Shown in pieces: positions 15,627 to 57,628 of a stretch of 64,000 bases of DNA. The position numbers were made by a program, and so were the translations under genes. Below the pieces are notes generated by a model. That model had not been told where the DNA came from and searched no databases. It saw only the letters and a program-made list of their open reading frames with translations. How positions within the stretch are numbered: position 1 is the first letter of the stretch; each line of letters starts with the position of its first letter. Source of the stretch: Eubacterium sp. (GTDB lineage Bacteria; Bacillota; Clostridia; Lachnospirales; Lachnospiraceae); the NCBI GenBank assembly GCA_022791495.1, contig JAAVZE010000133.1, positions 1 through 64,000 on the forward strand, in the 5' to 3' direction.

Positions 15627-17045
15627 TCAGCCCTGAAGCAGCTGCAAAATAGTCTGAGGACGATTATTCGCCTGTGCCAGCATGGCTGTTCCCGCCTGGC
15701 TGAGTACACTCAGCTGTGTATATTCTGTCATTTCCTCTGACATATCCACATCCTCGATACGGGAACAGGATTCTGTCAGGTTCTGGGATGTAATATCAAG
15801 ACTCGAAGTGGCAGAGTCAAGGCGGTTTTCATAAGCACCAAGCTTTGCACGGATCGCGGAAACTTCCTCTATCGCTGAATTAAACTTACTGATCGCTGTA
15901 GAAGCTCCCTCTTTGGTACATACATTACAGTACTCAATATCCAGAGATTTACAAGTCACTGGAGGAATGGATATATCGATAGTCTGCCCCTCATTGGCGC
16001 CGATCTGAATTGCCACAAATCCTGCATCCAGTACTGTTACGGCTGCATCACTTCCCGCCTTTGCATTGGAAACATCAAAGACCATACAGAAGCCGTCCCG
16101 GTCTGAAACTGTTACTCTACCACCCTGTATAAAGGTAGTAGCTGTCTTGGAAAATCCAGAATCCGTATCCAGCGTTACCTTCGCATCCTGTCCCCGTACT
16201 ATGTTTCCTCCATCCACACCAAGTTTAGCAGCAAGAGTCGGTGTATCTGTTGTCACTTCTATTTTATGCTCCACGCCATAGAGCTTCGATTCAAAACGTA
16301 AAGATGTAGCATTGGCAAGCTCGGTCTCATTACCAAGTGCATTGACTGGTGTCACTGCGATATTCATACTCTCACAGCAGTCACGGATCTCTGCATATAC
16401 ATTTTCCAGTGTATCTCCCTTCTTTACATGAATCATCTCACCATTGATCTGAATATCTCCCTTTTCAGTAAATACATCTGTGGCAGCCATACCAAGTGCA
16501 CCAGTTGTGAAAACTGTTTTCGTAGCCACCTGGTCGACAGTCATACCATACTTTGTCAACTCCACAGAATCTGTCATGGAAACAACCTTCACTCCAATAT
16601 TGTTGGAAGACGTTTGACGACAGCAGGAGCCATCCAGAATACTTTTCGTATTAAATTCTGTATCGGATGAAAGACGATCAATCTCTTCCATCAGAGAATC
16701 AATCTCTTTCTGGATCGCCTCTTTATCTTCCAGCATGGTCACACCCTGATTGGCCGCCTGCACAGAAAGCTCACGGCATCTCTGCAGCATATTTTCTACT
16801 TCGATGAGAGCTCCTTCTGCAGTCTGGATAAAAGAAATACCATCCGCACCGTTTCTTGAAGCACGCTGTAATCCTCGGATCTGCGCATGCATTTTCTGGG
16901 AGATCGCCATTCCCGCCGCATCATCTGCCGCCTTGTTGATCCGGTATCCGGAAGAAAGCCTCTCCAGGCTCGTCGTAATCTTATTCTCTGTCCGGTTCAA
17001 GTGTCCACTCGCTTTCATCGCTGCAATATTTGTGTTTATCTTCAT
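15627..17045 (-). CDS. Flagellin
   Basis: 472 aa; N-term MKINTNIAAMKASGHLNRTENKITTSLERLSSGYRINKAADDAAGMAIS; C-term VDMSEEMTEYTQLSVLSQAGTAMLAQANNRPQTILQLLQG. Confidence 0.95.
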   Translation of the reverse strand: MKINTNIAAMKASGHLNRTENKITTSLERLSSGYRINKAADDAAGMAISQKMHAQIRGLQRASRNGADGISFIQTAEGALIEVENMLQRCRELSVQAANQGVTMLEDKEAIQKEIDSLMEEIDRLSSDTEFNTKSILDGSCCRQTSSNNIGVKVVSMTDSVELTKYGMTVDQVATKTVFTTGALGMAATDVFTEKGDIQINGEMIHVKKGDTLENVYAEIRDCCESMNIAVTPVNALGNETELANATSLRFESKLYGVEHKIEVTTDTPTLAAKLGVDGGNIVRGQDAKVTLDTDSGFSKTATTFIQGGRVTVSDRDGFCMVFDVSNAKAGSDAAVTVLDAGFVAIQIGANEGQTIDISIPPVTCKSLDIEYCNVCTKEGASTAISKFNSAIEEVSAIRAKLGAYENRLDSATSSLDITSQNLTESCSRIEDVDMSEEMTEYTQLSVLSQAGTAMLAQANNRPQTILQLLQG

Positions 17046-19885
17046 TTTTCATCTTCCCTTCTCTGCACATTTTGAATAAATAATTTTGCCACCAGGTACA
17101 ACCTGTCGTTCGTGGCCTCTTCCTCTATCTGACTACCTGAATGAAATGAATTTCTTGTTCCTTTTGCAAAATCTCCACGCTCCATCGTGAATCCATTCAT
17201 TTCCAAATCCGTTTCAAATTCACCGAAAATACTTCTGGAAACCTCCAGAGTACCCTCTTCTTCACTGGTAACAAAACCGGATACCCGTGTCCCTGCCACC
17301 TTAAAGGTAGCTTGAAGACTTCCAAACCGGCCGGAACTGATACTGATCTCCACGGTTCCTTTCTCCGCCTTGTCGCCCTGTTTCACTGTGACCGCGCAGG
17401 CTGTCACACCGCGTTCTGTCACGATCGGCACCTCATATTTCTGGAAACGCCGCATCTGCCGGTAAAAAGAAATACTTCCTGCCATGACAGCAATATCCTT
17501 TACCGTGTCACTTGTGACGTCTTCGGCATCTTTCTGCTCCCGTAAACGATCTGCCAGTGCATTTTCCTTTTCCTCATACACTTCTGAGAGCAGTTGTGGA
17601 TTATCGAAAGCTTCTATGATCTCCTCGCTTCCCTCTCTTGTAAAAAACTTAAGGTACTCTTTCGCTCCCTGTTCCAGATAAGACCTCATCAAATGCACAT
17701 TCATAAGGCTGTCCGGCAGTTCCACCTGCTTTAATATCTGTAAGATCTGTTCGTCACTTTCTGACGCCATCTGTCTTACCTCTTCTGCCCTCTGCTCATA
17801 GTACTCAGTGGTTTCCCTAAGAGCCTCTACACTTCCCTGGCATTCATCCAGCAGAAGTTCCAGCGGATCACTCATATAGCTCTCACTTCGATTCTTTAAC
17901 ACCGCCGGAGAAAGCTCTTTTTGAAGCTTCAAGACCACACTGCTGCCAAATGCTGCGCCAATCTGGTCGCTAATGCTCTCACCCTTCGATACGACCTCTT
18001 TCAAGCCGCCGAAATCATCATCCACCTCCCGGTCAATCCCTTTGGATTTCCTCGTGCGAAGTGCTGACAGCAGAGAAGAAAAGGATAATTCCCTGCCATC
18101 CCGGACCACCTGTCCGATCACCGCCCCATCACTCTTATTTACTTTATCTAACAACCGGTAGATACCGATCATACTCTTTCTTTCTTCTTCCGAAATTCCA
18201 CCACTGTGATCCAGCTTCCACAAATACTTTCGGAAAGAGACATCATCCTGGGTAAGTTCTTCACTGATTTGTGAAACCTTTTCTCCCAGCTCATCCAGAC
18301 TCATCTCCAAAGGATTTTCCTGTCGCCGGATCAGTTCTGCCACTACCGGTGGACGGAGTTCTCTGACAAGAGTTGTTACCTTGTCATCGTATTCCTTCAT
18401 AGAAAGAATATTTTCTCTGGTAAGCTCCATGCGGTTATAGGCGAGAATCCGCACTGCCCGCTGATTCATCGCAGTAGGCTCCAGCTGGAGATCTTCTAAT
18501 ATATCATTCACATTGGAAAATGCCTTGCTGATCCTGTCTCCCAGATCCGCCCTTACCTCTGTTCCCACAGACTCATAACTGCTCTCCATACGGAGCCTCA
18601 TTTCCCTGCCTGCGGCTGCCACATCTGCGATAGTATCGCTATGTACCGTTTCAATCGTCCTGCCATACACTGCTGCCGGAGCTGCCAGGATATCCTCCCT
18701 TGCCCGCAGAGTATCAGCCATGATCTCCACATTTGGTTCCGACTGCTCCATTCCGGCTGCCTGCAGATATCCCCTGCACGCCTCCTGCTCCATCTGTTTT
18801 AGTTCCTCTACGATCTGAACCAGATTCTGTACATCCAGATGAATCCCTTTATTCTCCATGCGTCTCGCCGCGTCGATCGTCATCGTAAGCCGGATCTCTT
18901 CCAGCTGTCTCTTTGCTGTTATGACCTCCACATCCGTGGCAAAAGTACGTCGGAGCGTCTCCTCGTCCGTTTGTACCAGCTTCTCCAGCCGGTCTGCAGC
19001 TTCTTTTCGGGATATATTTGTAAGATCCGCTTCCTCCGGAAGTATGCCATCCAGCACCTCATCTTCGATGCGGTCCTCCAACACTTCCGGTGGTAGTTCT
19101 TTCAAATCCTGAATCGCCTGATAGTTGCGGACATTTTCAGCAGTTACCGGAGCTCCCTCTTCATAAAGCTTCTCCGCTGCCTGCATATTTTCCTCGTCTG
19201 CCACGAGACCACTGTTTTCCAGGATCGTCTCTGCCTGGTCACGGACTGTGTCAAAGGACTCTTTGCCCTCTGTGGGCATAACACCCCCAGACACTGCTCC
19301 CGCTGCCAGACTTCCCTTTATAGTCGCCGGCGTCACCGGAAGTTCATTTTCCAGAAGATATTTGACTGCTGACTCCGATATCCCCTGCAATCCAGATGCT
19401 ATCTGGGCAGCTTCCTTGATCCGCCGGTCGATTTCATCCATAAACTCCTTTTGTTCTTCGCTGTTCTCGACCTGCTTTTCCACTGCTTCCGCGTTTTCAC
19501 GCCGCTGGGTTTTTACCCGCTCCAGCGCGCGCTCTAAAGAGGACGCCACATACTCTTCCAAGATCGAGCCGTCCTCATCCTCTATCTCTTTTGCATCCTC
19601 GCCGTTCATGCTCTGACTGATAAACTGTGCCGGATCAAAGGTGTCTCCTGACAATCCCTGAACCGCTTCCTGCAGCATGCTGTTCTTACTATTCGTATCC
19701 GTATATACGATACTGTTTCCCATGTCCTTTCGTACCGCACAATCCGTTGTGTACTCAATTCCTATGTTGGAAATGCTGCCTTCCCTGGCATTCTGTACCG
19801 ACACCCCTAAGCCCTTTGCGTAGTCAGTGTCTTTAAAGTCAATGGAAATCTTATTGCTGTTAATGATCATAGATTTCACACTCAC
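17042..19885 (-). CDS. Large flagellar-locus protein (DUF6240-like; family name uncertain)
   Basis: 947 aa, helix-rich; ATGA overlap with flagellin start; repeated PVT-x-x-[NT]-[IV] motifs. Confidence 0.6.
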   Translation of the reverse strand: MSVKSMIINSNKISIDFKDTDYAKGLGVSVQNAREGSISNIGIEYTTDCAVRKDMGNSIVYTDTNSKNSMLQEAVQGLSGDTFDPAQFISQSMNGEDAKEIEDEDGSILEEYVASSLERALERVKTQRRENAEAVEKQVENSEEQKEFMDEIDRRIKEAAQIASGLQGISESAVKYLLENELPVTPATIKGSLAAGAVSGGVMPTEGKESFDTVRDQAETILENSGLVADEENMQAAEKLYEEGAPVTAENVRNYQAIQDLKELPPEVLEDRIEDEVLDGILPEEADLTNISRKEAADRLEKLVQTDEETLRRTFATDVEVITAKRQLEEIRLTMTIDAARRMENKGIHLDVQNLVQIVEELKQMEQEACRGYLQAAGMEQSEPNVEIMADTLRAREDILAAPAAVYGRTIETVHSDTIADVAAAGREMRLRMESSYESVGTEVRADLGDRISKAFSNVNDILEDLQLEPTAMNQRAVRILAYNRMELTRENILSMKEYDDKVTTLVRELRPPVVAELIRRQENPLEMSLDELGEKVSQISEELTQDDVSFRKYLWKLDHSGGISEEERKSMIGIYRLLDKVNKSDGAVIGQVVRDGRELSFSSLLSALRTRKSKGIDREVDDDFGGLKEVVSKGESISDQIGAAFGSSVVLKLQKELSPAVLKNRSESYMSDPLELLLDECQGSVEALRETTEYYEQRAEEVRQMASESDEQILQILKQVELPDSLMNVHLMRSYLEQGAKEYLKFFTREGSEEIIEAFDNPQLLSEVYEEKENALADRLREQKDAEDVTSDTVKDIAVMAGSISFYRQMRRFQKYEVPIVTERGVTACAVTVKQGDKAEKGTVEISISSGRFGSLQATFKVAGTRVSGFVTSEEEGTLEVSRSIFGEFETDLEMNGFTMERGDFAKGTRNSFHSGSQIEEEATNDRLYLVAKLFIQNVQRREDEK

Positions 19886-50887: not shown

Positions 50888-53755
<2,868 letters not shown>

Positions 53756-54986: not shown

Positions 54987-56885
54987 ATGTTTTCAAATCA
55001 GCGAAAGACAATCGGTGTATTGGTCGAGGCCGTACTCAACGAATGTCCAAGTCGTCTGTGCCAGGGAGTCATTCAAGCTTCAGAAGAATTAGGCTACAAT
55101 GTAGCCATCTTTAATTCCTATGGGAGCTACGGCAACAATCTGGAATACTTTAAGGGAGACTGTTATATGTATGAACTCCCTCCCTATGAGGCTCTGGATG
55201 GCATGATCCTGATTCTGGATACGATCCAGAATCTTCAGACCAGAGAACACGTACTCAAATATACCCTGGAACGCTGCCAGTGTCCGATCGTCAGTATCCG
55301 TGAAAATATCGAGGGTGCCAACAATCTGCTTGTGGATAACACGACCTGTATGGAAAGTATAATTCGCCATTTTATTGATGTTCACGGGTTTACCCGCCTC
55401 TGTTTTATGACTGGTCCAAAAGAACGCTGGGATTCCATCGAACGGCTGGATTGTTTTCGACGGATTATGGCGGAATATAACCTGCCTGTGGATGAATATC
55501 AGGTCTTTTACGGCGATTTCTGGAAAAATAAGGGCAGCGCTGCCTGCGACTGGTTTCTTCAGGGAAGTGAACTCCCCCAGGCTATTATATGTGCCAATGA
55601 CTATATGGCGGCCGCTGTGGCGAGTGATCTCATAAAATTAGGCTATGACATTCCAAAGGATATATGCGTCAGTGGATATGATGGTTTAAAAGATACTATG
55701 TATTTTTCTCCCTCTCTTACAACAGTGGAAGTTCCTTTTTATGAGATGGGGATGAAGGCTGTAGAAATCATTGATAAAAGACAGGAAAACCCTTTTCAGA
55801 CAGAGAACTACTTTTTTGATGTAACACCCCTTACAAGAGAATCCTGTGGCTGTCAGCGCATCAACGACAGGGAGGTCATCGCCACGAGACGTAACTGGTT
55901 TGAGGAAATGAAGATAGAGAGAAACCGGAAGATCCAGTTTAATTTTTTATCCATTCATCTGGGAGAATGCAGAAATATCAATGAGATTTCAGATAAAATA
56001 CCAGAATACATATTTAACATCCAGGGATTTAAGGACTATTGTGTATGTCTCTGCAAAGACCTGGAAAAAATGGAAGAACTCAGCCATTACACCGATGAAA
56101 TGGAGCTGCGAATCGCCATACGGGACTGCAATTCCTTAGGACCTGTCCGGATGTCCTTTCCCCGGAATGAACTTCTCCCGGCAGAAATGACCAGCGACAA
56201 ACCCCAGGCATGGTATTTCACACCGCTGCATTTTGAAAATAAAACATTCGGTTATGAAGCGATACAGTTCCATACTCCGGAGACCACAGCAAATATATAC
56301 TTTGACTGGAGTACCAATATCAGCAATGCGATCCAGGATGTACTGAACCAGCATAAAATGCAGACTCTGATCGAAGAACTAGAATACATGTACGACAGAG
56401 ATGCCCTTACAGGAATGTATAACCGGCGGGGTTTTGAAAACCGCGCTTCAAAGCAGTTTGCCGATGCCAAGAGACAAAAGCTCCCCTTTTTCCTGGCAAT
56501 CATTGATCTGGATGGGATGAAGCAGATCAATGACATTTATGGTCATGTGGAAGGGGATTTTGCTCTGAAAAAGATCCGACATGCCATTCAAGATACGTGT
56601 GAACCTGTATTTACCGGTGCCCGCACCGGCGGCGATGAATTTGTTATATTTGCCAATAACATCCCGAAAGAACAATGCCTTGAACATATGGATGCCTTTG
56701 AAGGCTATCTGCAGAAGTTTAACCGTTTAGAGAAAAAACCATATCATATCTATGCCAGCCTGGGCTATATGTATAAGATCCCGGAGGAAGAAGATTCTCT
56801 GGAAACCTATATAAAGGTAAGCGATGAAATGATGTATAAGAATAAAGTAGAAAATAAAATCCGCAGAAATGAACCGCTGCGTTAG
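54987..56885 (+). CDS. LacI-type sugar-binding domain fused to GGDEF diguanylate cyclase (no HTH, no TM)
   Basis: KTIGVLVEAVLNECPSRLCQGVIQASEELGYNVAIFNSYG ... PQAIICANDYMAAAVASDLIKLGYDIPKDICVSGYDG ... DALTGMYNRRGFENRA ... ARTGGDEFVIF. Confidence 0.9.
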   Translation: MFSNQRKTIGVLVEAVLNECPSRLCQGVIQASEELGYNVAIFNSYGSYGNNLEYFKGDCYMYELPPYEALDGMILILDTIQNLQTREHVLKYTLERCQCPIVSIRENIEGANNLLVDNTTCMESIIRHFIDVHGFTRLCFMTGPKERWDSIERLDCFRRIMAEYNLPVDEYQVFYGDFWKNKGSAACDWFLQGSELPQAIICANDYMAAAVASDLIKLGYDIPKDICVSGYDGLKDTMYFSPSLTTVEVPFYEMGMKAVEIIDKRQENPFQTENYFFDVTPLTRESCGCQRINDREVIATRRNWFEEMKIERNRKIQFNFLSIHLGECRNINEISDKIPEYIFNIQGFKDYCVCLCKDLEKMEELSHYTDEMELRIAIRDCNSLGPVRMSFPRNELLPAEMTSDKPQAWYFTPLHFENKTFGYEAIQFHTPETTANIYFDWSTNISNAIQDVLNQHKMQTLIEELEYMYDRDALTGMYNRRGFENRASKQFADAKRQKLPFFLAIIDLDGMKQINDIYGHVEGDFALKKIRHAIQDTCEPVFTGARTGGDEFVIFANNIPKEQCLEHMDAFEGYLQKFNRLEKKPYHIYASLGYMYKIPEEEDSLETYIKVSDEMMYKNKVENKIRRNEPLR

Positions 56886-57226: not shown

Positions 57227-57628
57227 TTACACTCGTTTCTTACCGTCCTTTTGGTAAATGCAGCGAATCATCTCCATATGTCCACTGGTGTGTTGGGAGA
57301 TCCGGCTCGTCTGCAGATAAATTGTGGAATGGAACAATCGTGGAAGATCATCCACAAATGAAAAACCGACAGCAGATCTGCGGAAAACAGAATCCGATAC
57401 ACGCCGGTTCATGCGACGGAGTATTTCACCTGTAACAGTACGCCCTGAGAGCCTCTGTTCACAGATTACTCCTTTTTCTTTATGTATCTGAACACTGGAA
57501 CTGATCTTACAATCCGGAGCAGCAAAAAAATATGTCCGGAATGGTTGTTCATTCAGACATATCTCGCAGAGCAATATAGACAGCATCAGTAGAATACCGA
57601 TTCGTTTTCTCGTCACTATCCCTCTCAA
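57227..57628 (-). CDS. Hypothetical protein with possible signal anchor
   Basis: RKRIGILLMLSILLCEICLNEQ; no family recognised. Confidence 0.4.
   Translation of the reverse strand: MRGIVTRKRIGILLMLSILLCEICLNEQPFRTYFFAAPDCKISSSVQIHKEKGVICEQRLSGRTVTGEILRRMNRRVSDSVFRRSAVGFSFVDDLPRLFHSTIYLQTSRISQHTSGHMEMIRCIYQKDGKKRV

Follow-up and report, generated by a model that had tools for sequence, protein, structure and literature searches.

A cytosolic LacI-type ligand domain joined to a probable diguanylate cyclase without I-site, and the question of its ligand

The analysed window, a stretch of 64,000 nucleotides, belongs to the draft genome of a gut bacterium (2.9 Mb, 83% complete). It raises the question which signal is read by a 632-aa protein with a LacI-type ligand domain and a GGDEF domain. 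An earlier note on this DNA had proposed that imported xylo-oligosaccharides set c-di-GMP through this protein and thereby switch motility and adhesion. The genes named there were all found: the xylan locus comprises GH43, GH10, GH39, two GH115, GDSL and esterase genes, and the window also encodes flagellin, Tad-like T2SSE/T2SSF and one MCP. The reading favoured here, to which we give somewhat better than even chances, is a soluble, probably dimeric diguanylate cyclase that would be switched by a small internal sugar-like ligand and would be insensitive to feedback. The following features were assigned:

50888..53689, minus strand: GH2 LacZ-type beta-galactosidase, the carbohydrate gene nearest to the ORF; it adjoins the ORF also in loci L053-L056
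53767..54817, minus strand: ECF sigma factor and zf-HC2 anti-sigma pair, divergent neighbour between the ORF and the GH2 gene
54987..56885, plus strand: LacI-type ligand domain/GAF-like/GGDEF protein, ATG start, 632 aa (Pfam and model)
54987..55856, plus strand: LacI/RbsR-type ligand-binding domain, aa 1-290 (Pfam, RbsR alignment, fold match)
55842..55853, plus strand: SCGC motif, aa 286-289, where the chain leaves the ligand domain (all four residues unchanged in 86 of 88 relatives)
55866..55964, plus strand: long helix, aa 294-326, from the ligand domain to the middle domain (predicted model)
55974..56270, plus strand: GAF-like middle domain, aa 330-428 (model, weak fold match, no Pfam match)
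56301..56396, plus strand: signalling-type helix, aa 439-470 (predicted model)
56397..56855, plus strand: GGDEF domain, aa 471-623 (Pfam)
56601..56612, plus strand: position of the RxxD I-site, aa 539-542, reading EPVF (alignment)
56628..56642, plus strand: GGDEF motif, aa 548-552, in the context ARTGGDEFVIF (alignment)

The ORF is preceded by a good ribosome binding site (AAAGGAG). Against three near relatives 127-155 synonymous and 44-57 nonsynonymous codon differences were counted; hence, it is real coding sequence. Because an in-frame stop is located 14 codons upstream of the start, neither a signal peptide nor an HTH or TM helix can be accommodated ahead of the ligand domain. HTH_LacI was absent at the N-terminus, where the ORF begins at the ligand domain, and no TM segment was detected in the protein (highest 19-residue Kyte-Doolittle mean 1.17). 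Pfam, upstream stop and hydropathy agree with the start at a LacI/Peripla_BP_3-type domain without HTH and TM described in the earlier note. The promoter and terminator scan gave 15 promoters compared to 10.7 ± 2.8 expected, none of them clear for this ORF, and the Rfam scan of the window detected one tRNA and nothing else. The divergent ECF sigma/anti-sigma pair was not detected at the same place in the near relative L054; at locus L060 the divergent neighbour of the orthologue is a different sigma/anti-sigma-like pair. A short ORF with signal-like start (57227-57628, minus strand) lies in the 0.9 kb gap before metK. It is 94-99% conserved in three near relatives and without Pfam match. Elsewhere in the window, a 947-aa DUF6240 protein (17042-19885) directly adjoins the flagellin gene.

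Pfam matches of the protein were Peripla_BP_3 (1.8e-23), Peripla_BP_1 (8.4e-9) and GGDEF (2.2e-30), and with phmmer residues 4-284 aligned with RbsR at 26% identity. In the AlphaFold2 model, built with the sequences of nine relatives only (mean pLDDT 85), the ligand domain is followed by helix 294-326, an alpha/beta middle domain, helix 439-470 and the GGDEF domain. The closest solved folds to the ligand domain are of the LacI family, and the top ones are sugar-bound (RbsR with ribose, a LacI ancestor with D-fucose). For the predicted fold of the middle region, described earlier as GAF-like, GAF domains rank first and second, weakly (Foldseek E 0.04-0.06; best probability 0.98), but no Pfam GAF match was obtained for this region in nine members at E 0.01.

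Conservation was counted in an alignment of 88 relatives, 87 of them reaching the GGDEF domain. In all 87, GGDEF or GGDEY is intact and the catalytic positions are kept; the 632-aa protein retains the metal/GTP residues D507, N515, D524, D550, E551 and K620. Thus, the motif is intact, as had been claimed. The RxxD I-site, also reported lost, is absent in 85 of the 87 relatives. Judged from the alignment, this loss is a trait of the family, and it supports the claimed absence of canonical product inhibition. The protein is probably a cytosolic ligand-gated diguanylate cyclase without such inhibition. With the I-site absent and the cyclase activity predicted, the domain might instead be a relay that binds GTP or c-di-GMP and is no working cyclase, but the retention of the catalytic positions throughout the family makes this highly improbable. 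A cGAMP-producing (Hypr) GGDEF domain, which we take to be marked by an Asp-to-Ser change at the GD position, was rejected, since D524 is kept. From sequence, D524 argues for c-di-GMP and speaks against cGAMP as product.

No experimental study of a LacI-GGDEF fusion was found in the open-access literature. PBP-GGDEF architectures are already catalogued; new, as far as the sequence tells, is one that is cytosolic, LacI-type and without I-site. In the available part of a 2022 review on c-di-GMP sensing (PMC8846402), PBP-clan domains are said to occur widely on GGDEF, EAL and HD-GYP proteins, SBP_bac_3 (of RmcA) is the only one presented as studied, and Peripla_BP is listed as a putative sensory domain and possible sugar binder without validated role. 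The PBP-clan GGDEF/EAL proteins likewise use a periplasmic-binding-protein fold as sensor on a c-di-GMP enzyme. They are described in that part as periplasmic with a TM linker, whereas the present protein is wholly cytosolic, LacI-type and carries an added GAF-like domain. The GAF-GGDEF cyclases Lcd1 and DcpA, as they appear there (PMC8846402), also combine a soluble sensor and GGDEF in one chain; in contrast to them, the 632-aa protein has an extra N-terminal LacI-type domain and a middle region too diverged for Pfam GAF models. Sugar input enters in the same part only through a PTS phosphoprotein: EIIA-Glc of Vibrio cholerae acts on the phosphodiesterase PdeS, so that sugar status alters c-di-GMP (PMC8846402), whereas direct binding of sugar to the cyclase is proposed here. 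With LacI/GalR repressors (RbsR, CcpA, LacI) the protein shares the full Venus-flytrap ligand domain, the R/N/D contact positions and the cytosolic location. It differs from them by the missing HTH, the GGDEF enzyme as output and the SCGC motif at the exit with a long helix after it.

The predicted ligand contacts, mapped by homology, are R105, R153, N204 and D232; the LacI residue numbering behind this map is our assumption. R153, W179, N204 and D232 are invariant across the 88 relatives. The cysteines of the SCGC motif could form a redox or metal switch, for which the LacI-type fold would mainly be a scaffold. The motif is nearly invariant among the relatives and was not seen in the three other LacI-type proteins of the genome. 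However, the contacts R153, N204 and D232 are invariant too, and further metal ligands were not identified. Such a switch is regarded as very unlikely.

The proposed xylan signal has to be compared with the gene addresses of the orthologues. Surroundings with xylan genes were found only in the closest species (91-96% identity). The L056 copy (65% identity) still faces a LacZ-type GH2 gene, where the contig ends. Six orthologues with 52-59% identity are located directly downstream of cca (CCA-tRNA nucleotidyltransferase), five of them beside a convergent hydF, and no gene of the window's xylan locus is nearby. The next clade, including the second copy of the genome, lies between cca and tex; other subclades adjoin pyrH-frr, a gmk-like gene with holB, or an SDR gene, with the gene order around some copies interrupted where contigs end. 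In the tree, the window group is in one clade with the cca-hydF group. On the simplest reading, the location beside cca came first, relocation of the gene took place in the lineage of the window, and its position near xylan genes is a trait of this lineage.

Furthermore, the predicted pocket is nearly the same at both addresses. D78-T79, R105-E106, W148, R153, W179, N204, D232-G233 and F251 are identical in the window group and the cca-hydF orthologues, E14 is mostly shared, and changes occur at 18-21 and 76. Pocket identity between these groups is 74-83%, compared to 58-64% for the whole ligand domain. The residue pattern would fit one ligand for the window clade whatever the gene address, and other ligands in other subclades.

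A sensor dedicated to fragments released from xylan (xylobiose, aldouronic acid, arabinose), coupling the adjacent xylan locus to c-di-GMP, would agree with the xylan genes beside the copy in the window species and its near relatives. It would also agree with the distribution of GH10 among the 37 genus genomes: the 18 in which it was found are precisely those with a clade A/B copy of the LacI-GGDEF gene (18/18 vs 0/19). On a metK tree of 30 of the 37 genomes three changes are needed for this pattern, but well-supported branches force only one. As this single-gene phylogeny does not exclude one shared origin, the co-occurrence is suggestive only and may reflect a single lineage event. It suggests a link with xylan use at the level of lifestyle and does not count as a separate argument for a xylan ligand. 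Moreover, the nearest carbohydrate gene encodes a LacZ-type beta-galactosidase, not a xylanase. Proximity was rejected as evidence of xylan specificity after the synteny of the cca-region copies, and the inference of xylan sensing from the gene neighbourhood is weak. With this pocket kept away from xylan genes, the ligand named in the earlier note was not sustained, and a dedicated xylan sensor is considered unlikely.

Two subclades adjoin genes of sugar metabolism, galactokinase (galK) at ten loci and glmM-gntR-nagB-PTS EIIC at six, which supports sugar sensing in general. Both differ from the window group at pocket positions 14, 148 and 233, as expected if subclades bind different sugars. 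LacI-type domains may also recognise a purine, as in PurR, or another protein, as in CcpA, and both of these are among the nearest solved relatives of the ligand domain. Thus, a purine or nucleoside, or a partner such as HPr-Ser-P, has to be weighed as signal, also in view of the nucleotide or RNA genes (cca, pyrH, gmk) next to several subclades. The top fold matches with ribose and fucose and the galK and nag neighbours speak against it, and a non-sugar ligand appears rather unlikely.

For the favoured sugar-gated cyclase the following course is proposed. The LacI-type domain would take up a monosaccharide-sized sugar or sugar-like metabolite in its cleft; candidates are galactosides, pentoses and general internal sugars. 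On closing, the domain would shift its exit (RESCGC, then helix 294-326), and the change would travel via the GAF-like domain and helix 439-470. Two GGDEF domains would then change their mutual facing, switching c-di-GMP synthesis on or off; the dimer and the direction of the switch are inferred, like the cyclase activity, ligand class and output. Without I-site, the output would track the ligand level, undamped by product. Many of the gene contexts, however, consist of housekeeping genes (cca, hydF, tex, pyrH-frr, gmk) and give no hint of a sugar, the pocket map and the model have the bases given above, and the ligand may in fact bind to the GAF-like domain.

Regarding the output, 10 GGDEF matches over the cut-off and one below, four EAL matches and one PilZ protein were detected in the genome; in a draft of this completeness other c-di-GMP receivers may be missing. 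The sole detected PilZ protein is YcgR-type (YcgR N-terminal and PilZ domains) and is encoded between flhG- and cheB-like genes, as assigned by reading the sequence. This putative flagellar brake would be the clearest receiver. The earlier proposal of a motility switch stands insofar as a route exists, and a motility output for c-di-GMP is plausible in this genome, but nothing ties the 632-aa cyclase in particular to YcgR. Flagellin and PilZ occur in 37 of 37 genus genomes; their co-occurrence with the LacI-GGDEF gene discriminates nothing and was rejected as evidence. A c-di-GMP-I riboswitch scan of the genome gave no match, and neither did the controls.

Two further full-length LacI/GAF-like/GGDEF paralogues, 43% and 32% identical, are encoded in the same genome and had been missed before. 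Of these paralogues, G000:C129 (L013/L068) and G000:C73 (L014/L069), one lies between cca and tex and one upstream of pyrH-frr. Three of the six detected LacI-type (Peripla_BP_3) domains of the genome are fused to GGDEF. The other three proteins start with an HTH-like stretch like ordinary repressors, as judged by reading the sequence. Thus, in one genome non-DNA output is as frequent for LacI-type domains as the repressor role (3 vs 3). In public genomes at least 496 relatives were found, mostly in Clostridia; 80 of these are mostly from Lachnospiraceae, including the cultured Herbinix hemicellulosilytica, Mobilitalea sibirica and strain V9D3004. An order-wide profile search was positive for at least 4 of 116 genomes, with at most ten candidates per genome scored.

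Tentatively, and with chances we put a little below even, this may be a large enzyme family of Clostridia with up to several members per genome. Cytosolic LacI-type receptors that formerly acted on DNA would here have come to govern c-di-GMP directly and without feedback. Each subclade could respond to its own internal sugar (galactose for the galK neighbours, amino sugars for the nagB neighbours, others elsewhere), and as an array they would read the nutrients inside the cell for motility and attachment. Through a LacI-type receptor joined to a c-di-GMP enzyme, swimming or attachment could be switched by an internal metabolite. This is of relevance for fibre degraders of gut and rumen, for which it is poorly understood how the decision to swim or attach is made. 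Since the family is soluble and easily expressed, and two of its subclades have sugar genes as neighbours, it is testable whether a sugar directly controls a diguanylate cyclase.

Among the Herbinix and Mobilitalea relatives, tandem LacI-GGDEF pairs were observed at L093, L096, L099 and L100, the two copies belonging to separate subclades of the tree. In a record titled as an Anaerolineaceae (Chloroflexota) MAG (L118), a LacI-GGDEF copy was found among Herbinix-type genes with the same neighbours, which is either a binning error or a recent transfer.
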